64,000 nucleotides of DNA, from assembly GCA_927443345.1 (NCBI GenBank), contig CAKMKJ010000059.1, positions 1-64,000 of the forward strand, given 5' to 3'. This document shows positions 16,350 to 37,076 of the stretch, piece after piece. The notes under the pieces are model-generated. The model was not told where the DNA came from. It worked only from the letters and a program-made list of their open reading frames with translations, and did not search any database. This DNA comes from an uncultured Anaerolineaceae bacterium. GTDB lineage: Bacteria; Chloroflexota; Anaerolineae; Anaerolineales; Anaerolineaceae. Positions within the stretch are counted from its first letter, which is position 1. Each line of letters starts with the position of its first letter. Position numbers and translations under genes: made by a program.

Positions 16350-17006
16350 TTAAACTTCTGCAAATATTTGTTTGGCAGTCGCAAAGCCAAGCGTTACAGA
16401 ATTGTTGAGTACATCCAGTGTCACCGTTTGATTAAACGGAAGCACCTCAACAACTTTTACTTCTTGTCCTGGTTCGATACGTTTCTCTTCTAAAAAGGCC
16501 AGTAATTCTGGTATATCCTCGGCAAGTTCGTGAATTCTGCGGATGGTGACATTATCACCCGCTTTCAACTCTGTTAATGGCACCCAGGCAGATACTGCAG
16601 CTTCATGCCCGGGGAGAGGATTGCCGTGCGGACAAGTCTCAGGTTGATTGAGGTCAAGTAAGAGTGCATTCTCAACTTCATCTGAGATTGTGTGTTCAAA
16701 ACCGTGTGCTTCATGATGAACTTTAGACCACGACAGCATCCGAATTAGCATCCACTCAGCCAGCATGTGACGGCGCATCACAGTCCGCGCGAGTTGATCT
16801 CCCCTGGGGGTGAGGTGAGGGCAGTGGTTTGCGTCCATAGTGATCAAGCCGTCACGCACCATCCGTTTTAAGGTGTTGGTCACCGTCGGAGCAGATACTG
16901 CTAACAATTCGGCCAGGCGTGTACCAGTGATGGCGTCGCCGTCTCTTTCAGTGATGTAGATCAAGCCTAGATAATCTTCGATAGTAGAACTGGTTTTTAT
17001 TGTCAT
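16350..17006 (-). CDS. DtxR/MntR-family metal-dependent repressor
   Basis: 218 residues from ATG at 17006, chosen over an in-frame TTG at 17018 because GAGAG lies just upstream of the ATG. The protein has a winged helix-turn-helix (SSTIEDYLGLIY, then LLAVSAPTVTNTLKRMVRDGLI). A dimerisation/metal-binding domain follows, with the conserved RRHMLAEWML, HHEAHGFEHTISDEVE and CPHGNPLPG. A C-terminal SH3/FeoA-like domain completes the protein. It is divergent from feoABC, which it probably represses when Fe(II) or Mn(II) is plentiful. The 140-bp region between them holds palindromes suitable as operators. Confidence 0.9.
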   Translation of the reverse strand: MTIKTSSTIEDYLGLIYITERDGDAITGTRLAELLAVSAPTVTNTLKRMVRDGLITMDANHCPHLTPRGDQLARTVMRRHMLAEWMLIRMLSWSKVHHEAHGFEHTISDEVENALLLDLNQPETCPHGNPLPGHEAAVSAWVPLTELKAGDNVTIRRIHELAEDIPELLAFLEEKRIEPGQEVKVVEVLPFNQTVTLDVLNNSVTLGFATAKQIFAEV

Positions 17007-17061
17007 ATTTACTCTCAATAAGTGATCATTATCATACTAGACAAAAACAAGCTAATCAAGT

Positions 17062-17121: not shown

Positions 17122-17146
17122 AATCACATCATAGTAAGGATTGACG

Positions 17147-17401
17147 ATGCCAATAATCATAGAAAACACTACATCACTTGCAGAAATAAAAACTGGAATA
17201 GTGGTAACACTACAAACAATAAAGGTTGGAAGCGAACTCACCAGCCGCATGACCTCTTTGGGATTGACCCCCGGCGCCAGCATCGAAGTGCTGCAGAATT
17301 TTGGCCGCGGGCCAATAATAGTCAATGTCAGAGGCACTCACGTCGCACTGGGACGTGGTGAAGCGCGCAGTCTGATTGTAACTGAAGGTGGGCAGGCATG
17401 A
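17147..17401 (+). CDS. feoA: Ferrous iron transport protein A
   Basis: An 84-residue SH3-like FeoA. ATG at 17147 is preferred to an in-frame TTG at 17141 because AAGGA ends only at 17140. The core LTSRMTSLGLTPGASIEVLQN and the GRGPIIVNVRGTHVALGRGEA segment match FeoA. The small cytoplasmic protein supports FeoB activity at the membrane. Its stop overlaps the feoB start by 4 bp. Confidence 0.9.
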   Translation: MPIIIENTTSLAEIKTGIVVTLQTIKVGSELTSRMTSLGLTPGASIEVLQNFGRGPIIVNVRGTHVALGRGEARSLIVTEGGQA

Positions 17402-19440
17402 GCAAAGATTGTCATGATTGCGGATCACAACATCCCACTAAGCACCATGCAGTTAAGGGTTCTCCGCTGATTGCCCTCGCCGGACAACCCAACGTAGGTA
17501 AATCAACCATCTTTAATTTGTTAACTGGTTTGAACCAGCATGTCGGCAATTGGCCTGGCAAAACAGTTGAGCGCAAAGAAGGAAAGTTCAAAGTAAGCGG
17601 GAGAGAGTACCGTTTGGTGGATCTGCCAGGTACTTATAGTTTGACGGCCAACTCTCCAGAAGAACTGATCACTCGCGAATTCATTCTCACTGAAAAACCC
17701 GACCTGGTGGTGGCTCTGGTAAATGCTGCGAACCTCGAACGTTCGCTTTACCTTGTCGCGGAATTGGTTACACTATCCGCACCGTTGATCGTGGTGCTGA
17801 ATATGATGGATGTGGCCAGCCAGGAAGGTTATAACATTGAAGCCAATGTGCTTGAAGCGGCATTAGGTGTTCCGGTTGTTCCATTGACAGCCACACACGC
17901 AGCCAGTACTGCTGCTTTGGTTGGCGTAATTGAAAAAATGGTCACTTCAGACATTGTTCAGACCCCTAGAATGCCAGAGATCCGTGCCGACCATCAGGTT
18001 ATTCTTGAACAAATGCAAATCCTGATCAATGGTTTTGTCCCTGAGAAGTATCCCGCTAATTGGGTGGCGATAAAATTGCTTGAAGGGGATAAAGAGATCA
18101 CAAAACTGATGCAGTCGCTCGTTCCTCCTCAAAAGTGGGCTGATGTGCAAGCATTATTAAAAGACCATGATGACGCCATGCTGGCAATTGCATCTGGTCG
18201 TTACGAATGGATTGGACGCCTCACTCGGGCGGCTGTCACCCATCCCCGCGTCGGACAGGTGAGTCTCACAGATCGCTTGGATAAATGGGCAGCTCATCCG
18301 GTTGGCGGGTTGATCACCCTTGCGCTCATTCTCGGTTTGGTGTTTTGGTTAACCTTTTCACTGGGTTCTCCGGCACAAGAATGGTTGGATTCAACCCTCG
18401 TCTCACCGCTTGGTGAATTATTGAGCACATGGATGGCGGCCTCACCAGACTGGCTGCGCAGCCTTGTTGTAGACGGTGTGGTCGGCGGTGTCGGATCAGT
18501 GCTGACCTTTTTGCCCATCTTGATCATCTTTTTTGCTGCTTTTGGCTTTCTTGAAGATGTGGGTTATATGGCCCGCGCTGCATATGTGATGGATAATTTC
18601 ATGCATTGGATGGGTCTGCACGGAAAATCTTTCCTGCCTCTCTTCCTCGGCTTTGGCTGCAATGTGCCCTCTGTGATTGGCACACGCGTGATTGATTCGT
18701 GGAAATCTCGTTTGTTGACCATTCTGCTGGCACCTTTTGTGCCGTGTACTGCACGCATGGCTGTGATCGCATTTTTAGCACCCGCATTTTTTGGCAAGCA
18801 AGCCATGTGGGTCATCTGGGGATTAGTCTTCTTCTCGCTTTTCATCATGGTACTTCTGGGTGTTATTCTCAACAAGGTGCTCTTTAAAGGGGAGCGCTCC
18901 GCATTCATCATGGAAATGCCTCTTTATCACATCCCCAACCTCCGCACCATTGGATTATTAGTCTGGCAGCGTTCGCTTTCATTTGTCAAAAAAGCAGGAA
19001 CCATTATTTTGGTGATTTCAGTAGTGGTTTGGTCGCTTTCCATGTTGCCCGATGGCAATCTTGAAAATAGCATCCTGGCTAAAATAGGTCATTTCGTAGA
19101 ACCGGTTGGCCGGTGGATGGGCATGGATTGGAAACTGACGGTGGCATTGCTCACCAGTTTCGTTGCCAAAGAGAACGCCATTGCAACGCTGGGTATCCTT
19201 TTTGGAGGCATGCAAGAAGCCAGCCTGGCACAATCACTCGCTGCTATCTATACCCCGGCATCTGCTCTAGGCTTTTTGACCGTGTCGCTCCTTTTTGTTC
19301 CTTGTGTGGCTACCCTGGCTGTGATCAAACAGGAAACCGGATCGTGGAAGTGGACCATGGTAAATATTCTGCTCATGCTGGTGGTGTCTATTGGTGCTGG
19401 CACAGGTATTTATCATTTAGCCTCAGCCTTAGGATTGTAA
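17398..19440 (+). CDS. feoB: Ferrous iron transporter FeoB
   Basis: A 680-residue GTPase-coupled Fe(II) importer. The G domain has G1 GQPNVGKST (residues 29-37), G3 DLPGTYSL and G4 NMMD. A linker domain and the membrane permease domain with the Gate motifs (GFGCNVPSVIGT and VPCTARMAV) follow. Ahead of G1 is a short Cys/His-rich extension (CHDCGSQHPTKHH) that could bind metal. At 680 residues it is slightly shorter than E. coli FeoB (773). ATGA overlap with feoA and a stop directly abutting the feoC-like gene indicate one operon. Confidence 0.95.
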   Translation: MSKDCHDCGSQHPTKHHAVKGSPLIALAGQPNVGKSTIFNLLTGLNQHVGNWPGKTVERKEGKFKVSGREYRLVDLPGTYSLTANSPEELITREFILTEKPDLVVALVNAANLERSLYLVAELVTLSAPLIVVLNMMDVASQEGYNIEANVLEAALGVPVVPLTATHAASTAALVGVIEKMVTSDIVQTPRMPEIRADHQVILEQMQILINGFVPEKYPANWVAIKLLEGDKEITKLMQSLVPPQKWADVQALLKDHDDAMLAIASGRYEWIGRLTRAAVTHPRVGQVSLTDRLDKWAAHPVGGLITLALILGLVFWLTFSLGSPAQEWLDSTLVSPLGELLSTWMAASPDWLRSLVVDGVVGGVGSVLTFLPILIIFFAAFGFLEDVGYMARAAYVMDNFMHWMGLHGKSFLPLFLGFGCNVPSVIGTRVIDSWKSRLLTILLAPFVPCTARMAVIAFLAPAFFGKQAMWVIWGLVFFSLFIMVLLGVILNKVLFKGERSAFIMEMPLYHIPNLRTIGLLVWQRSLSFVKKAGTIILVISVVVWSLSMLPDGNLENSILAKIGHFVEPVGRWMGMDWKLTVALLTSFVAKENAIATLGILFGGMQEASLAQSLAAIYTPASALGFLTVSLLFVPCVATLAVIKQETGSWKWTMVNILLMLVVSIGAGTGIYHLASALGL

Positions 19441-20874: not shown

Positions 20875-20894
20875 CAAGACAATTAAATATTAAA

Positions 20895-21240
20895 AGCAAT
20901 GACGAGGACGAGTACTCCTCACAAGGACGTTTCAGAGAGCAGGGTAATGTGGTGAGAACCTGTACGCACCGTGAAGATGAATGGACCTCTGAGCTGCAGG
21001 GTGAACGTGAAAACCAGTAACCCGCGCCGGGAATGCCGCCGTTATCATGGCTACGAGTATAAGCAGAACCTCTGCCGTACTCAAAACGAGTGAAGCTGGC
21101 TTTTCCAATCCCTGGGCGCAATTCTCCTGGGGTTTTATTTTAGGAGGGAAACAGCTTAACCGGGGTGGCACCGCGGATTTTAAACGTCCGTCCCCTTGTA
21201 TGGCGATTTTTTCGCCGTCGATAGGGACGGGCGTTTTTTA
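20895..21240 (+). promoter_or_regulatory. T-box riboswitch, tryptophan-specific
   Basis: A T-box leader that senses uncharged tRNA-Trp and controls the downstream trpB2. Stem I starts with the ATGACGAGGACGAGTA region (from 20899). The specifier loop GAA-TGG-ACC has TGG (Trp) at 20982-20984, followed by CTCTGAGCTGC, which is typical. The T-box sequence GGGGTGGCACCGCGG (21162-21176) pairs with the tRNA acceptor end to form the antiterminator. A competing terminator follows at 21184-21240. Assignment of the Trp codon rests on alignment of the specifier loop by eye, supported by the regulated gene. Confidence 0.93.
21184..21240 (+). terminator. T-box terminator hairpin
   Basis: Arms 21184-21194 and 21224-21234 pair over 11 bp with one G-U pair, enclose a small inner GGCGA/TCGCC hairpin and run into TTTTTTATTTT. 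It should form when charged tRNA-Trp is abundant. Confidence 0.85.
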
Positions 21241-21295: not shown

Positions 21296-22675
21296 ATGGA
21301 AGAGCAAACGAAATACCTTCTGAATGAAAACGACATTCCGCGAGCCTGGTACAACATTAACGCAGATTCACCAGTTGCCCCTGAGGCAGTGTTGAATCCC
21401 ATGACCAATGAACCGGTCACCCCTGATTTTCTCTCTGTTCTATTTCCGATGGGGCTGATCGAGCAGGAGGTCAGCATGGATCGTTACATTGATATCCCTG
21501 AAGAGGTGCGTGAAGCCTACAAACTGTGGAGGCCGACCCCTCTCATCCGTGCAAGACGCCTTGAAAAAGCACTCGGCACTCCTGCTCACATTTACTTTAA
21601 ATATGAAGGCGTATCTCCATCTGGCAGTCATAAATCTAATACAGCGATTCCACAAGCCTATTACAACAAGATCGCAGGTACCAAAGCCATGACCACCGAA
21701 ACCGGCGCTGGTCAGTGGGGTTCTGCCCTTTCAATGGCTTGTCAGTTTTACGATATGCCGCTTGAGGTTTACATGGTGCGGGTGTCTTATGATCAAAAAC
21801 CTTATCGCCGTTTCTTGATGGAAACGTACGGTGCTGAAGTCAATGCCAGCCCCAGCCCCAAGACGCATTACGGACAAAAGTTGCTTGCTGACGATGCCAG
21901 TAACCCTGGTTCACTGGGCATCGCCATTTCTGAAGCGGTTGAAATGGCTGCCACTTCAAACGGCGTCAAAAAATACGGTTTGGGATCGGTACTACACCAT
22001 GTTCTGCTGCATCAATCAGTCATCGGTGAAGAAGCCCTCAAGCAAATGGATATGGCCAATGAGTATCCTGATGTGGTCATCGGCTGTGTCGGTGGCGGAT
22101 CGAATTTTGCGGGCATTGCCTTCCCGTTCTTACGTGAAAATCTCAAAAATGGACAGCGCACCCGTCTTCTGGCCGTTGAACCGGATGCTGCGCCTTCATT
22201 AACGCGCGGGATTTACGCTTTCGATTACGGCGATACCGCTTGCTCAGCACCCATCTGTAAAATGTACACCCTGGGCGCCGATTTTATGCCCGCTTCCATC
22301 CATTCAGGCGGATTGCGCTATCACGGCATGGCCCCCACGCTCTCTGCTCTTTACGCGCAGGGTCTGGTTGAAGCTGTGGCCGTTGCCCAAACCAAGGTCT
22401 TTGAAGCGGCTGTTCTTTTTGCCCGAACCGAAGGGCTTTTACCCGCGCCTGAATCATCTCATGCTATCTTGGCCGCCATCAATGAAGCGCTTGAAGCCAA
22501 GAAAACAGGTGAGAAGAAAGTCATCCTCTTTAATCTCTCCGGGCATGGCCATTTTGATCTCTCCTCTTACAATAAATATCTGACCGGCCAGATGGAAGAT
22601 TATGCCCTCCCGGATGAGGCTGTTAAAAATATCCGCCAGCACATCCCCGCGATCAAAGAGAACGCACTGGTATAA
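21296..22675 (+). CDS. Tryptophan synthase beta-like protein TrpB2
   Basis: A 459-residue PLP enzyme of the TrpB2 branch: longer than TrpB1 (~400) and with the N-terminal AWYNINADSP segment. The PLP lysine is in the GSHKSNTA motif, and the phosphate-binding loop is GCVGGGSNFAG. TrpB2 makes tryptophan from indole and serine, often without TrpA. No other trp genes are present, which suits an indole-salvage or stand-alone role. AAAGGAG lies six bases before ATG. A tRNA-Trp T-box controls it, which supports a function in tryptophan supply. Confidence 0.92.
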   Translation: MEEQTKYLLNENDIPRAWYNINADSPVAPEAVLNPMTNEPVTPDFLSVLFPMGLIEQEVSMDRYIDIPEEVREAYKLWRPTPLIRARRLEKALGTPAHIYFKYEGVSPSGSHKSNTAIPQAYYNKIAGTKAMTTETGAGQWGSALSMACQFYDMPLEVYMVRVSYDQKPYRRFLMETYGAEVNASPSPKTHYGQKLLADDASNPGSLGIAISEAVEMAATSNGVKKYGLGSVLHHVLLHQSVIGEEALKQMDMANEYPDVVIGCVGGGSNFAGIAFPFLRENLKNGQRTRLLAVEPDAAPSLTRGIYAFDYGDTACSAPICKMYTLGADFMPASIHSGGLRYHGMAPTLSALYAQGLVEAVAVAQTKVFEAAVLFARTEGLLPAPESSHAILAAINEALEAKKTGEKKVILFNLSGHGHFDLSSYNKYLTGQMEDYALPDEAVKNIRQHIPAIKENALV

Positions 22676-22704: not shown

Positions 22705-22740
22705 CAAAAAAGCGCCATCTCTTCGGAGTGGTGCTTTTTT
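22705..22740 (+). terminator. Intrinsic terminator after trpB2
   Basis: An imperfect hairpin (AAGCGCCATCT, CTTCGG loop, AGTGGTGCTT) followed by TTTTTT. Confidence 0.75.
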
Positions 22741-22761
22741 GATAATTATTTGGAAATTAAG

Positions 22762-25035
22762 ATGTTTTCGTATATCATAAATGAGATGAATGAACCTGGA
22801 TTTCTCGCTTATCTTGAGGGAGAGGGGATTGCTAGCCAAATCCCCTTCAACCGATATTTGCCACAACACCCCGCTGGTGTTGCGCAAAAATGGCTCACGC
22901 AGCACGCGGCACCGGGCTCATGGGTCTTGGAACCCATTGGCGCCTCACCGGCTGCCATCCTCGAGATGGCCCAAGCTGGCAATAAAGTGCTGGTGGCTGC
23001 GAATAACCCCGTGGTGGCGTTTGAGCTTGAGATTCTGGCGCAGGCAGCCGCAAAAACCGAGTTCCTGTCTGTGCTGCGTGAACTCTCCGTGCAGAAAAAA
23101 GGGGATGATCGCCTTCAACGCCACATCCAGAGTCTGTATCTTACCCGCTGTGCCACCTGCGGCAAAGAGGTAGATGCAGATTACTTCTTGTGGCGCAAGT
23201 CAGAAGATGTGCCCTATGCCAAATATTACCGCTGCACAGCCTGCGGAGACGAGGGTGAACACCTGATCAGCGAGACGGATATTGAGCGGCTGGCACCCTA
23301 CAAGCGCTCCGATCCGCTGCACCGCGCCAGGGCGCTCGAAAAGATACCTGAACTGACCCGGGCTGCGCGCGCCAACCTTGAGGAGCTGCTCAAGGTCTAT
23401 GCACCCAGACCCTTGTATGTGATCTTTACCTTAATAAACAAGATTGAAGGCATGTCTCTATCGCCAGCGCGCCGTGAACTGCTGGATGCCCTCTTGCTTT
23501 CAGTGCTGGATGCCGGCCATTCTTTATGGCCAGCGGGCGAGGGTAATGAGCGTCCGCGAGTGTTAAATATTCCTTCAGAATATGTCGAGCACAACCTATG
23601 GCAGGCTCTTGAAAGATGTATTGAGACTTGGTGCATGCGTGAGACCCCCATTAATGTCACCCGCTGGTCTGAATTACCCGAAGGGGCAGGCATCTGTCTT
23701 TATCAAGGCCGCATGCGCGACCTGCTGCAGCAAAAACCCGCCATATCCCTTGAGTCTATTTATTGTGTGCTGCCGCGGCCAAATCAGGTGTTTTGGAGTC
23801 TATCGACGCTGTGGTGTTCTTGGTTGTGGGGCAAAGAGACAGCCGCCAATTTCAAGAACGTTCTTGAAAGGCAGCGCTTTGACTGGTATTGGCATACCAA
23901 CGCGCTAAACTCCGCGCTTGCGCCTGCCGCACGGATGATCAAGCCGGGCAGCCCCGCATTCTGCCTGATCCCCGAGCCGGTACCCGGATTCACCGCCGCG
24001 GCTTTTGAAGCCTGCTGCACGGCCAACCTGCAGTTATCTGGGCTGGCTTACAAAGACGAACAGCACCCGATCCAGACTGAGTGGGTTGCACAGCCTGCCA
24101 ACCGCGAGGTTAAGAAGGTCAACCTGCATAAGATCATCCGTGAGGCCATTAATTCCTGCCTGATGCAAATTGGAGAGCCCTGCCGTTATTTGCAGCTTTA
24201 CACGGCGGTTATGGCTTCACTGACCCTCAATGAGGCTTACCCGGTCTCGATTCAGCAGATGTCCTACGACCTGATAACCAACGTACATGATGAGATTCTC
24301 AAGGTTTTCGCTGACCGCAAGTTCCTGCGTCGCATGGATGCCACCTCACAAGACCTGATCAGCGGATACTGGTGGCTGGCCCAACCTGAGGGCTGCCAGG
24401 TATCTCTCGCGGACCGGGTTGAGAAAGAGGTGGTCAACTTGCTGCAAAAGGAAACCGAGGTTTCAGCCGCGGAGGTGCAACAAGAGATGAATTCCCGATT
24501 CACCGGTTTTCAGACGCCGCCCGCCGATCTGCTGGAGGTTTGTCTGCAATCCTACGCCGAGCTGGATAAGAGCGCAAAGGTGTGGCGCATCCGCGAAAGT
24601 GAAAAATACGCCAGCCGCCAGCAAGATCTGGCAGACATCCAACTGCAGTTGCTCAGCATGGCCGCAAAAATGAGTTTGACCGCGGAGGGCGACAACCCGA
24701 TTGACTGGATTGACCCCAAAACGCAGGGCAGCCTGGTCTATCGTTTGTTTTATGCCTCCACAGCCGAGATGACCCGCTGGCTATCGACGGATAGTGATGA
24801 TAATGTTGACCGTGTATTTTTGTTCCCGGGCAGCCGCTCGGGCTTGATCCGCTATAAGCTTGACCGCGACCCCTGGATGCGCGAGCGTGTCACGCAGCGC
24901 TGGCACTTTCTCAAGTTTCGCACCCTGCGTGATCTTTCAAGCCGTAGAGACCTCTCACGCGACCTGTGGGATCTGTTGATTGATTCTGATCCCATCAGCC
25001 AGGAAGATGCCACCCAGCTTTCAATGTTTCTATAA
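22762..25035 (+). CDS. Large protein resembling a catalytically dead DNA methyltransferase
   Basis: 757 residues from ATG 22762 (an in-frame TTG at 22750 and ATG at 22783 are alternatives). I found no confident family name. The layout parallels large DNA (adenine/cytosine-N4) methylases of the DUF1156 kind. There is a SAM-site-like segment with EPIGASPAAILEMAQAG and AANNPVVAFE where active enzymes have DPFxGSGT and DxNPVA. A zinc ribbon (CATCGKEVDADYF to CTACGDE) follows. Next comes LPRPNQVFWSLSTLWCSWLWG where the catalytic TDPPYY and FFYVWL motifs would fall, then a C-terminal helical region. Neither DPPY nor another (D/N/S)PP(Y/F/W) was seen, so methyl transfer is unlikely. The 3' end is 3 bp from a convergent gene. 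A regulatory or structural DNA-binding role is possible. Confidence 0.55.
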   Translation: MFSYIINEMNEPGFLAYLEGEGIASQIPFNRYLPQHPAGVAQKWLTQHAAPGSWVLEPIGASPAAILEMAQAGNKVLVAANNPVVAFELEILAQAAAKTEFLSVLRELSVQKKGDDRLQRHIQSLYLTRCATCGKEVDADYFLWRKSEDVPYAKYYRCTACGDEGEHLISETDIERLAPYKRSDPLHRARALEKIPELTRAARANLEELLKVYAPRPLYVIFTLINKIEGMSLSPARRELLDALLLSVLDAGHSLWPAGEGNERPRVLNIPSEYVEHNLWQALERCIETWCMRETPINVTRWSELPEGAGICLYQGRMRDLLQQKPAISLESIYCVLPRPNQVFWSLSTLWCSWLWGKETAANFKNVLERQRFDWYWHTNALNSALAPAARMIKPGSPAFCLIPEPVPGFTAAAFEACCTANLQLSGLAYKDEQHPIQTEWVAQPANREVKKVNLHKIIREAINSCLMQIGEPCRYLQLYTAVMASLTLNEAYPVSIQQMSYDLITNVHDEILKVFADRKFLRRMDATSQDLISGYWWLAQPEGCQVSLADRVEKEVVNLLQKETEVSAAEVQQEMNSRFTGFQTPPADLLEVCLQSYAELDKSAKVWRIRESEKYASRQQDLADIQLQLLSMAAKMSLTAEGDNPIDWIDPKTQGSLVYRLFYASTAEMTRWLSTDSDDNVDRVFLFPGSRSGLIRYKLDRDPWMRERVTQRWHFLKFRTLRDLSSRRDLSRDLWDLLIDSDPISQEDATQLSMFL

Positions 25036-25038
25036 AAA

Positions 25039-25782
25039 TTATTTAACTTGCCTGAAGTTGATCAGCACCAGGTTCTTGTCGCAGGTGTCGAAGGTGTCAA
25101 AGATGACCTGCTCAGAGAGCGGCAGCCCAGATTGATCGATCAATTGGATGGAGAGCAGCCCGCTTGAACTAATCGGCGTGGTGCCTAATGGGAATTCATA
25201 GCCTGAATCGCCATACTGTGTATGCGTTCCCGAAATGGATTGTGTGCTGATGGTTTTGCCGTTGTAAGTTCCCTTGAGTTGGATGCCGATATTCACCAGA
25301 TGTCTGCCCTGCAAATCGAGGACCTGTCCGGCGATGCCCTGCCAGGCGCAGCCTGTTGACGGTTTGAAGGTGCTGCTATTCACCGCTGAGGGGGCTGCTT
25401 GCACTCCGAAAGTATAGAGTGAGTTACCGGCGGCAGTGGGATAGGCCGTGATGGCGGCATCGGTCTCACTGGGCAGAATTATAGGTGTGGCGGTGACTGG
25501 CTCGGGGGTCTGGGTGGCGCCTACGGTAGGCGTCCAGGTGGGGGGCAGCACGACCGGGGTGGCCGTCGAGGTGGGGATGATGACCAACACGGGCATGGTG
25601 GGCGGCGGAAAGGGGTTGATCGAGATAAACGGATTGGAATAGATCATGAGCAGCACCCCGACCAGGCCAACAGAAGCCAGAAGGGTGATGACGGTCAGAA
25701 AATTCCAGAAGACGTCACTTTGTTGGCGGCGTCTGCGGCGTTTCATGCGCCTGTCCATTTCGTCATGGTCGGTAAAGTTCAT
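25039..25782 (-). CDS. Membrane-anchored protein with Pro/Thr linker, unknown function
   Basis: 247 residues: an Arg-rich cytoplasmic N-terminus (RRMKRRRRRQQ), one membrane helix (about 28-48), a Pro/Thr-rich linker of ~60 residues, and a C-terminal domain with two Cys that may pair. That domain (GCAWQGIAGQVLDLQGRHLVNIGIQLKG onward) looks like a small beta-sandwich of the carboxypeptidase-regulatory/transthyretin kind. It lies 29 bp downstream of the parvulin lipoprotein gene and is likely cotranscribed, so it may be a client or accessory of that chaperone. Confidence 0.65.
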   Translation of the reverse strand: MNFTDHDEMDRRMKRRRRRQQSDVFWNFLTVITLLASVGLVGVLLMIYSNPFISINPFPPPTMPVLVIIPTSTATPVVLPPTWTPTVGATQTPEPVTATPIILPSETDAAITAYPTAAGNSLYTFGVQAAPSAVNSSTFKPSTGCAWQGIAGQVLDLQGRHLVNIGIQLKGTYNGKTISTQSISGTHTQYGDSGYEFPLGTTPISSSGLLSIQLIDQSGLPLSEQVIFDTFDTCDKNLVLINFRQVK

Positions 25783-31910: not shown

Positions 31911-34439
31911 ATGCCGCTCAAAGAAGCCAAGGCGCGTATCAAAATAAACAACATGCTCACCGAATCTGGTTGGCGTTTCTTTGCTGATGCCAACGGACCA
32001 GCTAACATTCAGTTGGAACTTCACACTAAAATCACTCAATACCAACTGGATGCCTTCGGCGAGGATTTTGAGACCACCAATCACGGATATCTTGATTTCC
32101 TCTTGCTCGATTCAAAAGGTCATCCCCTTGTGGTGCTTGAAGCCAAAAAAGAAGGTCTTAATCCACTCACAGGCAAAGAACAGGCGCGCAAATATGCCCG
32201 TTCAGTGAACTGCCGCTTTGTCATCCTTTCCAATGGCAACATCCATTACTTCTGGGATCTCGAACGCGGCGATCCTTATGTAATCACTCGTTTTCCTGAA
32301 CCTGCGTCTGTTGTGGGCTATGAAGCTCACAAACCCGACCCCGCCCGTCTTGCGGACGAGGTCGTAAAAGACGATTACATCGTTCTCACCCAGCGACCCA
32401 ATTACGCCAGTGAAGCCGGCTGGAAGCTTGATGCCGAACGTCTCAAGTTCATCGAAGAGAATAAACTCCGTTTCTTGCGTGAGTATCAATTACGTGCCAT
32501 CGTCGCGTTGCAAAACAGCGCTCGCTCTGGCAAGGATCGCTACCTCTTTGAAATGGCAACCGGCACCGGCAAAACGCTGACCGCTGCCGCCGTTATCAAA
32601 CTCTTTTTGCGCACCAAAAACGCCCATCGCGTTTTGTTCCTCGTGGACCGTTTGGAACTTGAAAGCCAGGCTCAAAAGGCTTTTACTTTTCTTTTGAAAA
32701 ATGATTTTAAATCGGTCGTTTATAAAGAGAACCGTGATGATTGGCGAAAGGCTGAAATTGTCGTCACCACAGTTCAATCACTGCTTTTTAATAATAAATT
32801 CCGCCGTCTATTCTCACCAACGGATTTTGATCTCATCATCTCAGACGAAGCCCATCGCTCCATCGGTGGCAACGCCCGTGCGGTATTTGAATACTTTGTC
32901 GGCTATAAACTCGGCCTCACCGCCACGCCTAAAGACTATCTCAAAAAACTGAACACCAGCCAAAACGATCCCCGCGAATTGGAACGCCGTATTCTGCTCG
33001 ACACCTACCGTACCTTCGGCTGTGATGATGGTCAGCCGACTTTCCGTTATTCCCTCATCGATGGGGTGAAAGACGGATTCCTGGTCAATCCGGTGGTGGT
33101 TGACGCTCGCACCGAAGTCACCACCCAATTGTTATCTGACAAAGGCTATGCGGTTCTAACCCAAACTGAAGAAGGTGAAGATCAAACCGAAATCTTCATC
33201 GGGCGTGATTTTGAGAAAACCTTTTTCTCTGAAGCCACAAATCGCATTTTTTGCAAGGCTTTTCTCGATAACGCTTTAAAAGACCCCATCAGTGGGGAAA
33301 TTGGCAAGACCATCATCTTTGCGGTAAGCCAGAATCATGCGGCAAAGATTGCCCAAATCCTTAACGAAGAGGCTTCAATTCGTTTTCCTGGCAAATACAA
33401 ATCAGATTTTGCCCTTCAAGTCACCTCCAGCGTCATGGATTCTCAGCAGTTCACCATTAACTTCGCTAATAACAATCTCAACGGATCCGCCAATATCCTG
33501 CCCGGTTATAAAACCTCTAAAACCCGTGTCTGTGTCACCGTTGGCATGATGACCACCGGTTACGACTGCACCGACATTCTTAACCTCTGTCTCATGCGTC
33601 CCATTTTCTCCCCCACGGATTTTATCCAGATCAAAGGACGTGGCACGCGTAAACACATTTTTAATGCCGACCTGCACGATCACAACTTGACTGATCAATT
33701 TTCTACTCAGGCCAAAGATCGTTTTAAACTCTTTGATTATTTCGCCAATTGTGAATATTTTGAAGATAAGTTTAATTATGATGAAGTCTTGAAGCTCCCC
33801 AAACCTTCACAAAAATCGGTGGGCTCCCAACCTGGTTCCACATCCGCTTCAATCCTTGAATACGAGCGACAAGGTCCCGATATGCTCTTTCCTCTCCGCG
33901 AGACCGCAGTGGGGCAGGACGGTATGCGAATTGACCGCATGTACTTCAACCGCTTTGAAGATGTGCTTAAAGCCGATCCTATCATCCAAAAAGGCGTTGA
34001 AGATCAGATGTGGGATCGTGTCTTGGATTACATCAAAGAAAATCTGCTCAATAAACCTGAAGAATACTTCACCCTTGAAAAACTCCGCCGTGCCGCCGGT
34101 GTGGATCGGCGTCTCTCTCTACGTGAGATTATCGAAAAAGCCTACGGTTTCATTCCTGAGTTTAAAAGCAAAGATGTTTTGCTCGAAGAAGAATTTGCCA
34201 AATTCCTGGCCGAAGCTAAACCCACCAACCCAGGCTCGATTTTGCCCATGAAGTATTATTTCAAAGCCTACCTGACAGACAGCCGTGTTCGCGGTATCAT
34301 TGACTCCAAGAAACTCATAGAACTCAATACCAACCCAACCTTTACCATGCAAGATTACAAGGCTGTCCCTGAAGAATGGCGCACCCGCATCCCCGATTAC
34401 ATCAAAGATTATGTGCCTCTTAATCAATTTGTGGTTTGA
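31911..34439 (+). CDS. hsdR: Type I restriction enzyme, R subunit
   Basis: 842 residues. The N-terminal PD-(D/E)XK nuclease domain has the Asp in YLDFLLLD and VLEAKKEG at about residues 60-80. The SF2 helicase motor has Walker A MATGTGKT near residue 216-222, the DEAH box in SDEAHRS near 313, the GLTATPKDY motif III region and QIKGRGTRK as motif VI. A helical C-terminal domain contacts the methylase. The complex cuts unmodified DNA after translocation. The start has GGGGA eight bases before ATG. It is followed by the fused HsdM-HsdS gene after 141 bp. Confidence 0.95.
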   Translation: MPLKEAKARIKINNMLTESGWRFFADANGPANIQLELHTKITQYQLDAFGEDFETTNHGYLDFLLLDSKGHPLVVLEAKKEGLNPLTGKEQARKYARSVNCRFVILSNGNIHYFWDLERGDPYVITRFPEPASVVGYEAHKPDPARLADEVVKDDYIVLTQRPNYASEAGWKLDAERLKFIEENKLRFLREYQLRAIVALQNSARSGKDRYLFEMATGTGKTLTAAAVIKLFLRTKNAHRVLFLVDRLELESQAQKAFTFLLKNDFKSVVYKENRDDWRKAEIVVTTVQSLLFNNKFRRLFSPTDFDLIISDEAHRSIGGNARAVFEYFVGYKLGLTATPKDYLKKLNTSQNDPRELERRILLDTYRTFGCDDGQPTFRYSLIDGVKDGFLVNPVVVDARTEVTTQLLSDKGYAVLTQTEEGEDQTEIFIGRDFEKTFFSEATNRIFCKAFLDNALKDPISGEIGKTIIFAVSQNHAAKIAQILNEEASIRFPGKYKSDFALQVTSSVMDSQQFTINFANNNLNGSANILPGYKTSKTRVCVTVGMMTTGYDCTDILNLCLMRPIFSPTDFIQIKGRGTRKHIFNADLHDHNLTDQFSTQAKDRFKLFDYFANCEYFEDKFNYDEVLKLPKPSQKSVGSQPGSTSASILEYERQGPDMLFPLRETAVGQDGMRIDRMYFNRFEDVLKADPIIQKGVEDQMWDRVLDYIKENLLNKPEEYFTLEKLRRAAGVDRRLSLREIIEKAYGFIPEFKSKDVLLEEEFAKFLAEAKPTNPGSILPMKYYFKAYLTDSRVRGIIDSKKLIELNTNPTFTMQDYKAVPEEWRTRIPDYIKDYVPLNQFVV

Positions 34440-34446
34440 ACTTGTA

Positions 34447-34468
34447 GGGGCGAATGGATATTCGCCCC
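34447..34468. repeat. Dispersed palindrome between hsdR and hsdMS
   Basis: GGGGCGAAT, four bases, ATTCGCCCC: perfect 9-bp arms, preceded by GTA. It belongs with the GTAGGGGC-type palindromes elsewhere in the window and could act as a transcript hairpin after hsdR. Confidence 0.55.
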
Positions 34469-34580
34469 ATTGAGCCGTGCCCGTTTATCGGGTGAATTAA
34501 ATTTTTTTCAACCCAAATCTGATTTTTATCTTTGCGTTCTTTGCGCCATTGCGTGAGATTAATTACTTTTAGGAGAGTAA

Positions 34581-37076
34581 ATGCTTGACACCGAAACCAA
34601 ACGCCGCATCGACACCGCCCGAGACATACTGGTAGGCAAAGTCCCCGACCCAAAAAGCCAGGTCGAACAGATCACCATTGCCCTCATCTACAAATTTATG
34701 GATGACATGGACGCCGAAGCCGAGGAACTTGGCGGCCAGCGCACCTTCTTCTCAGGCGATTTCGCCCGTTTTGGCTGGGCGCAGTTGATGGATGTTTCGC
34801 TGGGCGGCAACGAAACCCTCATGCGTTACAGCGAAGCCCTTGAAAAGATGAAAGAGAACCCTAACATCCCCGATCTCTTTCGCAACATCTTTCGCAACGT
34901 CTTTCTGCCCTACCGTGACCCCGAAACCCTCAAAAGCTTTCTCAAAGTCATCAATGACTTCACCTATGACCATTCAGAACGCCTGGGCGATGCCTTTGAA
35001 TACCTGCTCTCGGTTATGGATTCGCAGGGGGCAGCCGGTCAGTTCCGCACCCCGCGTCACATCATTGACTTCATGGTCGAACTGATTGATCCTCAAAAGA
35101 ATGAACGCGTCCTCGACCCTGCCTGCGGCACCGCCGGCTTTCTCATTTCAGCCTTTAAACACATACTCAAAACTGCGCGCGAAGCAGATCAAACCCTTAC
35201 CCCCGATGAGAAAACCCGTCTCATGCAGAACTTCACCGGTTACGACATCTCACCGGATATGGTACGCCTCTCGCGTGTCAATCTTTACTTGCATGGGTTC
35301 CAGACCCCCAATATTCACGAATACGATACCCTGACCAGTGATGAACGCTGGAACGAATCGGCCGATGTCATTCTGGCCAACCCGCCTTTTATGAGCCCTT
35401 CGGGGGGTGGCATCCGTCCACATAAGCGTTTCTCGGTCGAATCAAATCGTTCAGAAGTCCTTTTTGTCGACTACATCATGGAGCATCTCACCGTGTCGGG
35501 TCGTGCTGCGGTCATCGTTCCTGAAGGCATCATTTTCCAGTCTGGCAAAGCCCATAGATTTTTGCGCAAAATGCTCGTTGAAAATGACTATTTGGTAGGA
35601 GTGATTTCGTTACCTGCTGGTGTTTTTAATCCATATAGTGGTGTAAAGACTTCCATTTTGTGGCTTGATCGCTCATTAGCGAAGAAAACAAGAAGTGTTG
35701 TTTTTTGTAAAATTGACTCTGATGGATTTGATTTGGGGGCTCAAAGAAGACCAAATGGAAAAAATGACATACCTGAAGTTATCGATCAGTTAAGGCTTTA
35801 TAAAGAAATGGATTTTTCAGAAGAAATAACATCTATTGATTTGTTAAGTACTATAAAAATTGTATCGAAAAATCAACTATCCCTCGATGCTGATTATAAT
35901 TTAAGCTATGATAGGTATGGCAATCAAAAACAAAACGAAACTGAGTTTCCACTTATTCAAATTGGTGAAATTTGCAGCATAATTAGTGGTACAGGTTTCC
36001 CTCTTTCAGAGCAGGGTGGTGTTAATGAGGAAATTCCATTTTTAAAAGTAAGCGATATGAATTTATCTGGTAATGAGAAATATATCAGATCGTGGAATAA
36101 TTCAATTTCAAGAGAAACGGTTTCAAAACTAGGGGCAAGAATTTGTCCGGCAGGGACTGTGATTTTTCCAAAAATTGGTGCAGCAATTGCCACCAACAAG
36201 AAAAGAATATTAACTACCCCTAGTGTGTTTGACAATAACGTTATGGGGTTAGTGCCAAAAAAAGGATTGTTACCTACTTTTCTCTATTCACTTCTAATTA
36301 CCTTTAATTTATCAAATTGGGCAAGTAAGAGTGCATTACCATCTATGCGACAATCAATTATATCTGAAGAAAAAATTCCTCTTCCCACATTGGGTCAACA
36401 AGAAGAGATTGTCATCGAAATTGATTCCTTCCAAAAGATCATCGACGGCGCGCGGATGATCGTCGAAAACTATCGTCCGCTGATTGAGATAGATCCATCT
36501 TGGCCTGAATTTAAACTAGGTGATTTATGTTTGTTCGCAACAGGCGGCACCCCAACTTCCAGCAACAGGGATTATTTTGAAAAAGGTACTATTAAATGGT
36601 TAGTCTCAGGTGATATTCATAAGGGCGAAATTTTTGATTGTTCTGGTCGAATCACTCAATTGGGTCTTGATAATTCAAATGCCAAATTCCTCCCAATTAA
36701 TTCTGTTTTAATTGCATTAAATGGTCAAGGGAAAACACGGGGTACAGTAGCAATGTTAAGGATGCTCGCCACATGTAATCAATCTTTAGTGTCTATTTTT
36801 CCTAATGATCCAAATGTATTGTTACCAGAATTCATTTATTTTAATTTAAAACAAAAATATATTGAAATTAGACAAATAACGGGTGATAATCAAAGAAGTG
36901 GTCTAAATATTCCAATTATTAAAAATATATCGATTAATGTACCTGAAACTAGCATTCAAAAGAAAATCATCGAAACATTAATGATCGAATCCAACCTTGT
37001 TAACCAGGCAAAATCGTTAATTCCAATTTATGAACAAAAAATTCGTGATTATATGTCCAAAATTTGGGGTGAGTAA
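34581..37076 (+). CDS. Type I restriction-modification fused methylase-specificity subunit (HsdM-HsdS)
   Basis: 831 residues. Residues 1 to ~400 are HsdM: a helical N-domain, SAM motif I DPACGTAGF (about 178-186) and catalytic NPPF (about 267-270). Residues ~450-830 are HsdS-like: first target-recognition domain, a central conserved helical region near 607-640 (LGQQEEIVIEIDSFQKIIDGAR), second recognition domain, and a distal conserved helix. One polypeptide thus reads the DNA site and methylates adenine. From about 35585 the DNA becomes much more AT-rich, recovers briefly in the central helix (36420-36500), then drops again, suggesting exchange of specificity segments by recombination. AGGAGAG precedes ATG. 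Confidence 0.92.
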   Translation: MLDTETKRRIDTARDILVGKVPDPKSQVEQITIALIYKFMDDMDAEAEELGGQRTFFSGDFARFGWAQLMDVSLGGNETLMRYSEALEKMKENPNIPDLFRNIFRNVFLPYRDPETLKSFLKVINDFTYDHSERLGDAFEYLLSVMDSQGAAGQFRTPRHIIDFMVELIDPQKNERVLDPACGTAGFLISAFKHILKTAREADQTLTPDEKTRLMQNFTGYDISPDMVRLSRVNLYLHGFQTPNIHEYDTLTSDERWNESADVILANPPFMSPSGGGIRPHKRFSVESNRSEVLFVDYIMEHLTVSGRAAVIVPEGIIFQSGKAHRFLRKMLVENDYLVGVISLPAGVFNPYSGVKTSILWLDRSLAKKTRSVVFCKIDSDGFDLGAQRRPNGKNDIPEVIDQLRLYKEMDFSEEITSIDLLSTIKIVSKNQLSLDADYNLSYDRYGNQKQNETEFPLIQIGEICSIISGTGFPLSEQGGVNEEIPFLKVSDMNLSGNEKYIRSWNNSISRETVSKLGARICPAGTVIFPKIGAAIATNKKRILTTPSVFDNNVMGLVPKKGLLPTFLYSLLITFNLSNWASKSALPSMRQSIISEEKIPLPTLGQQEEIVIEIDSFQKIIDGARMIVENYRPLIEIDPSWPEFKLGDLCLFATGGTPTSSNRDYFEKGTIKWLVSGDIHKGEIFDCSGRITQLGLDNSNAKFLPINSVLIALNGQGKTRGTVAMLRMLATCNQSLVSIFPNDPNVLLPEFIYFNLKQKYIEIRQITGDNQRSGLNIPIIKNISINVPETSIQKKIIETLMIESNLVNQAKSLIPIYEQKIRDYMSKIWGE

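Follow-up and report, generated by a model that had tools for sequence, protein, structure and literature searches.

A conserved Anaerolineae protein with a DNA methyltransferase fold and replaced catalytic motifs

The gene and its neighbours

The window, a stretch of 64,000 nucleotides from an uncultured Anaerolineaceae bacterium, carries on its forward strand an open frame without internal stop (22762..25035) that encodes a protein of 757 aa and is annotated here as a probable pseudo-methyltransferase gene. Translation might begin at TTG 22750, ATG 22762 or ATG 22786, and residues 1-11 of the AF2 model have a pLDDT below 50. Between the upstream TrpB-like gene and the 757-aa gene lies a terminator-like hairpin (22705..22741, forward strand), whose folding energy of -22.1 kcal/mol corresponds to a z of -7.2 and was equalled by 0/200 shuffled sequences. 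The hairpin has a bulge in its stem and was missed by the consensus terminator scan. Due to its position upstream, the 757-aa gene probably constitutes its own transcription unit. The gene that follows on the 3' side is convergent, and promoter-like matches near the start of the 757-aa gene amounted to 2, with 1.6 expected by chance. Directly 5' of the TrpB-like gene (21296-22675), a T-box leader was identified on the forward strand (20890-21198; Rfam RF00230, 107 bits).

The surroundings of the gene vary between lineages. The window's genus shows a TrpB-like gene, a gene for an unknown protein, a SurA-like lipoprotein and GroEL, while other lineages have either a penicillin-binding protein or a sensor kinase together with a GAF response regulator, a glycosyltransferase and NBR1-Ig/CAP genes. 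No neighbour was conserved across the whole family in the loci surveyed. Within the genus, a reverse-strand gene for a 247-aa protein (25039-25782) adjoins the 757-aa gene (cluster in 10 loci); by eye this protein seems to possess a membrane anchor, and it matches no Pfam family. Among 28 further loci, a TPR gene was found upstream in 6 and a PolX-like gene upstream in 4, and the one PolX-like gene that was scanned, at locus L186, has PolX-type domains. At locus L189 (6472-11258), the homologue adjoins a same-strand MrfA-type helicase that contains an MZB domain of the Zn-binding type. A role connected with DNA repair was weighed and set aside, as the PolX-like genes (4/28), the TPR genes (6/28) and the MrfA-type helicase beside a single homologue form too patchy a pattern.

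Membership in a defence island was also rejected on the basis of the neighbourhoods, despite a type I restriction-modification system located 7 kb downstream. The helicase, ATPase or PglZ partners of a BREX-, DISARM- or Hma-type locus were not among the recurrent neighbours scanned, with the helicase at L189 as the exception. The type I system itself (31911-37076, forward strand) is composed of an HsdR-like gene (31911-34439) followed by a single ORF with N6_Mtase and Methylase_S domains, which by its domain content is a putative fused modification-specificity subunit. In another part of the window, an iron-dependent DtxR-type repressor with a C-terminal FeoA domain is encoded on the reverse strand (16350-17018), beside ORFs (17141-19440) that by eye resemble FeoA and FeoB.

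A methyltransferase fold with replaced motifs

The original prediction had described a methyltransferase-like order of segments for the 757-aa protein, and EPIGASP, NNPV, two CxxC pairs and LPRPN were found where it had placed them. The AF2 model, computed from an alignment of 78 rows, reached a pLDDT of 90.9 and a pTM of 0.89. VIA-align of this model identified a Rossmann methyltransferase core, on which the original prediction depended, at residues ~18-446 (Z up to 13.3), with 2pwy (Z 13.3, rmsd 3.1, 170 residues aligned), TrmN (13.1) and Trm11 (13.1) as matches. The model and VIA-align divide the core into a first part (residues 26-95; 22837..23046, forward strand like all features of this gene) and a second part (residues 300-446; 23659..24099). 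Model and hhalign place between them an insert after core strand 2 that comprises a zinc ribbon and helices (residues 96-299; 23047..23658). Sequence columns define the zinc ribbon by C130-C133 and C158-C161 (residues 126-165; 23137..23256); the four cysteines are present in 78/78 close Anaerolineae rows and in 16/16 rows of a second set, and zinc binding is predicted. According to the passages of PMC12839542 on active DUF1156-type methylases, the target-recognition insert of these enzymes follows core strand 2, which is the place that the model and hhalign assign to the zinc-ribbon insert of the 757-aa protein. Foldseek with the full-length model returned no PDB match at E<=0.001, perhaps owing to the large inserts that split the core. 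The sole match at this threshold in the viral library was a Pandoravirus N4-cytosine DNA methyltransferase (E 1.8e-4).

Searches of Pfam, NCBIfam, PHROGs and PADLOC with the 757-aa protein yielded nothing, or weak matches mostly to zinc ribbons, and the PDB sequence search gave no match (best E 0.75), which indicates that single-sequence searches are blind to the methylase relationship. An alignment of 78 Anaerolineae members compared by hhalign with 13 intact-motif methylases was colinear over residues 48-434 (98.4%, E 8.8e-15), and a phylum-wide set of 26 gave 99.8% (E 5.2e-28). The comparators were judged intact by their sequence motifs and consist of 11 of 14 PF06634 loci plus two further methylases (L171 and L174); L172 and L173 were retrieved and left unused. 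One distant family member, L166, exceeds the Pfam N6_N4_Mtase cut-off (30.0 versus 26.7 bits). The predicted likeness to DUF1156-type methylases thus holds for the colinear core and fails for the DUF1156 domain itself, as PF06634 had no match in the 757-aa protein at E up to 1, and none in its own genome. The gene is not among the 9 matches of PF01555 in that genome either. Other N6_N4 methylase matches are present there, and two of them (G000:C67:21738-22505 and G000:C51:48384-48839) contain several internal stops and are likely pseudogenes.

Column counts for the catalytic motifs were taken in four sets: 78 close Anaerolineae (A2), 17 outside-class members, 18 members that share the class and lie outside the order, and the 13 intact-motif comparators. 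The degenerate SAM loop (residues 54-65; 22921..22956) reads EPIGASP in the window and mostly DPFGASP or DPFGFSP in the family, versus DPFxGGG in intact-motif enzymes. Its GxG is retained in 0/78, 2/17, 0/18 and 13/13 sequences of the four sets, respectively, and position 63 is Pro in 78/78 rows of A2 and 29/29 rows of A1, a set gathered by whole-protein search, while all 13 comparators have Gly. The degenerate motif II (residues 75-84; 22984..23013) reads VLVAANNPV in the window versus VxxDLNPV in intact-motif enzymes; its acid is lost in the window and retained in 0/78, 12/17, 2/18 and 13/13 sequences. These counts bear out the proposed loss of the Gly-rich, acidic form of the SAM loop, with GxG and the motif II acid both at 0/78 in the close set. 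At the remodelled catalytic motif IV (residues 334-358; 23761..23835; delimited by conservation windows and column counts), TDPPYYDN..LSDFFYVWL is replaced by CVLPRPNQVFWSLSTLWCSWLWGKE, so that the catalytic site of the window protein reads VLPRP. A complete (D/N/S)PP(Y/F/W/H) was found in 0/78, 0/17 and 0/18 family members, that is in 0/113 of those examined, versus 13/13 comparators, in line with the prediction that LPRPN had taken the place of Asp-Pro-Pro. The Asp alone is kept at this position in 0/78, 0/17, 3/18 and 13/13.

The three class-level members with this Asp (L195, L196 and L200) read ADPPRPDGVFW, in which DPP is kept as DPPR and which, going by its letters, appears as an evolutionary intermediate between TDPPYY and LPRPNQAFW. 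Together with the GxG in 2/17 and the acid in 12/17 members from outside the class, they show that the decay was uneven. These remnants and the intact fold would be expected if the protein continued to methylate with SAM by means of an unorthodox motif. However, all three sites are lost in 78/78 close Anaerolineae and a Pro occupies the Gly position of the SAM loop, which makes such an activity very unlikely. In a tree of 64 methylase cores, the 51 family members are separated from the 13 intact-motif methylases by a branch with 100/100 support, and an intact (D/N)PP(Y/F), which could have spoken against the original prediction had it occurred in the homologues aligning here, is found only across this branch. 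The tree included every fifth row of A2 and was drawn with its root at the midpoint; its 34 Anaerolineae rows are grouped (100/99), as are the 16 A2 rows within them (100/100).

The C-terminal half

The C-terminus was also modelled alone (pLDDT 90.5), which yielded a winged helix followed by an alpha/beta domain. The winged-helix domain (residues 545-612; 24394..24597; separate model and VIA-align) matches a cullin winged helix with a VIA-align Z of 8.0 and an rmsd of 2.8 over 68 residues. The second domain (residues 613-757; 24598..25032) is described, from hhalign and weak fold matches, as a degenerate PD-(D/E)XK-like domain that has lost its acidic motif. Foldseek with the C-terminal model found no PDB match at E<=0.001; AF2093 (E 0.003), an IclR regulator and O-methyltransferases ranked best and ahead of nuclease folds. 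The PD-(D/E)XK matches were weak and stood behind these unrelated folds (YaeQ, Mus81-EME2 and Can2, E 0.07-0.32; also Cdn1). VIA-align with VRR-NUC gave a Z of 6.7 and an rmsd of 3.0 over 79 residues, a comparison that barely covers the nuclease-like part, and PDB sequence searches with the C-terminal domain returned nothing of note.

Sequence profiles were more telling. The window domain aligned by hhalign (99.9%, E 1.9e-37) with 16 outside-class homologues in which D..(E/Q/K)xE is intact. All 16 carry the pattern D..W..(E/Q/K)-x-E-W-(mostly T)-A, in which the D and the second E are invariant, and 8 of the 16 matched the type II restriction-enzyme profile REase_II PDLC03534 of PADLOC (best E 1.1e-5). 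Since the signature is found in 16/16 and the profile match in 8/16, the nuclease assignment rests more on sequence than on fold, and the C-terminal domain is probably restriction-nuclease-like. The acidic D...(D/E)xK/E signature is absent from the window protein and from 9 other close Anaerolineae rows, and several class-level rows retain the D and have lost the E-x-E. As read from these alignments, the nuclease-like signature has thus also been lost in the window's lineage.

The 16 homologues from outside the class (L155-L170) combine an incomplete methylase motif with D..(E/Q/K)xEW in every case and, judged by these motifs, are possibly active nucleases that use a dead methylase as DNA reader. 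The end of the methylase L171 looks alike by eye, but hhalign gave 0.8% (E 0.071), a similarity that is not significant and does not support an ancestral fusion shared by the two proteins.

Conservation, distribution and probable role

The gene is under purifying selection. The comparison rests on two close pairs that include the window, as dS is saturated against a third relative; these pairs gave overall dN/dS values of 0.102 and 0.085, or about 0.1, with lower values for the methylase core (0.085 and 0.057) than for the C-terminus (0.168 and 0.139). In A2, the 15-residue windows with the highest conservation anywhere in the protein start at residues 335-347 and correspond to the former motif IV. 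As the pattern PRP[NS]Q[AV]FW had partly guided the collection of A2, the invariance of the motif in this set is biased. The 29 rows of A1 were not collected by motif and also rank the window starts 334-346 first, followed by 368, 70 and their neighbours. A1 excludes L023, and A2 excludes L067 and L100, whose extracted sequences contain internal stops, as well as L107; the A6 alignment contains 49 of the 78 rows. Besides P63, the residues N82, P338, R339 and W345 are fixed in A2 (78/78) and A1 (29/29), as expected if the altered motifs are conserved across Anaerolineae. As the replaced motif is the best-conserved stretch in A1 too, PRPNQAFW is not a product of decay, and the view that an intact gene has been retained agrees with both this conservation and the dN/dS values. 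A functionless, decaying relic of a defence system, for which the loss of both catalytic residue sets and the methylase/restriction type of the homologues could be cited, is difficult to reconcile with a dN/dS of about 0.1, matches in 34/42 genera and a top-conserved altered motif, and can be considered extremely improbable.

The best-conserved part of the protein differs between groups. Residues 205-213 rank alongside 341-345 in the 18 class-level rows. For the 16 outside-class rows, the top places go to window starts 547-551, in the winged helix, and 656-664, in the nuclease-like signature, ahead of the methylase pocket. With the pocket favoured in Anaerolineae and the C-terminal half outside the class, the constraint seems to have shifted from the nuclease half to a rebuilt pocket. 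An alternative reading would be a switch of chemistry, in which GASP, NNP, PRPNQAFW and RxRxDWxW form a new active site that employs another cofactor or modifies bases without SAM. The pocket columns are the top-conserved ones and contain Arg, Asn, Gln, Trp and Pro residues that vary little or not at all, which exceeds the usual need of a passive scaffold. Yet no acidic residue has been newly fixed at the catalytic position, family searches recognised no known motif, and no cofactor gene travels along in the neighbourhoods surveyed, so that a switched chemistry is considered unlikely.

A match to the family was detected in 49 of the 61 genomes searched, the own genome included, and in 34 of the 42 genera of the order sample. 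The remaining 12 genomes, some of them nearly complete, gave no match and the gene therefore seems to be dispensable, although these absences are soft, as the searches score few candidates per genome. The gene is single-copy: genomes with two rows contain pieces of one gene, except for G041, in which the second row is a DUF1156 methylase. The best 80 of 311 relatives in GTDB genomes belong to Anaerolineae, Chloroflexi, with one Aquidulcis and one Herpetosiphon, and the genera among these 80 include Anaerolinea, Longilinea, Ornatilinea, Leptolinea and Brevefilum. Sampling of the class and of the phylum gave matches in 105/249 and 72/301 genomes, respectively, with lower counts for the family itself, as some weak matches are true methylases that match in the N-terminal part (e.g. 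L171 and L174). From these matches, 16 of 48 outside-class genomes and 18 of 91 same-class matches were chosen rather than drawn at random; L214 was added later and L213 was dropped as the same gene as L160. No match to the family was detected in 50,697 phage records, 72,556 plasmid records or viral contigs. Vertical descent of the family is apparently the simplest reading.

This distribution also bears on the possibility that the protein is an inactive partner that stimulates or targets an active methylase. Pseudo-methyltransferases are well known in eukaryotes, where METTL14 and DNMT3L act as such inactive partners, and by analogy the other N6_N4 methylase matches in the own genome might supply the active enzyme. 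However, DUF1156 methylases occur in 10/61 genomes versus 49/61 for the 757-aa gene, two genomes (G036 and G046) have a DUF1156 methylase without the 757-aa gene, and no methylase is found among the recurrent neighbours. A partner role by this analogy is therefore quite improbable.

It is shown here that the methylase fold was kept and that the SAM loop, the motif II acid and the DPP-aromatic motif were swapped for fixed and strongly conserved alternatives. On balance, the protein is probably a pseudo-methyltransferase that is related to the active zinc-ribbon DNA methylases and does not belong to them. The best reading of the data is a domesticated methylase-nuclease fusion that serves as a housekeeping protein, does not methylate and probably binds DNA; the single copy, the probable own transcription unit, the varied household neighbours and the lack of phage, plasmid and viral matches were counted in its favour. 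Such a protein would no longer methylate or cut DNA, and its contacts with DNA would be made by the winged helix together with the zinc-ribbon insert. The former pocket for SAM and the flipped base, with Pro63, Asn82, Pro338, Arg339 and Trp345, may then serve as a recognition or regulatory site, whose target could be a base in DNA, a nucleotide ligand or a partner protein; the protein's role would be chromosomal and of the housekeeping kind, such as regulation or DNA maintenance. More tentatively, and with somewhat less than even expectation, the methylase pocket would have drifted outside Anaerolineae, where the winged helix and the nuclease-like half stayed conserved together with the signature, while in the window's order the nuclease half would have died and the dead methylase pocket would have been rebuilt as a near-invariant site for ligand or base recognition, or as a new active site. 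If this is true, the protein would stand for a novel type of DNA sensor or maintenance factor.

The literature searched, mostly titles and the openings of abstracts, contained no description of such a protein. What is new is that the family extends past its class, that its pocket was rebuilt and is highly conserved, and that its restriction-nuclease-like half has decayed. A bacterial pseudo-methyltransferase is unusual if it occurs as one copy, can be followed outside its class and shows its highest conservation where the chemistry was lost. DPPYY, DPPRP and PRPNQAFW provide a stepwise series for the study of catalytic-site repurposing, and the family is a specific candidate for a new function in a phylum that has received little study.

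Among known systems, the DUF1156-type or zinc-ribbon adenine DNA methylases (BREX-related, HmaB, PglX) share with the 757-aa protein the colinear core, the zinc-ribbon insert after strand 2 and the order of motifs. In contrast to them, the 757-aa protein lacks the DUF1156 domain, the SAM loop, the motif II acid and the DPP-aromatic motif, lies outside a recognised defence locus and ends in a winged helix and a nuclease-like domain. The C-terminal domain gave weak fold matches to PD-(D/E)XK nucleases of the YaeQ, VRR-NUC and Mus81 type, whose D..(E/Q/K)xE is kept by the outside-class homologues and absent in the window protein. METTL14 and DNMT3L likewise kept a methyltransferase fold and lost the catalytic motif; unlike them, the 757-aa protein is bacterial, no active partner was found for it, and it has a zinc ribbon, a winged helix and a nuclease-like domain of its own.
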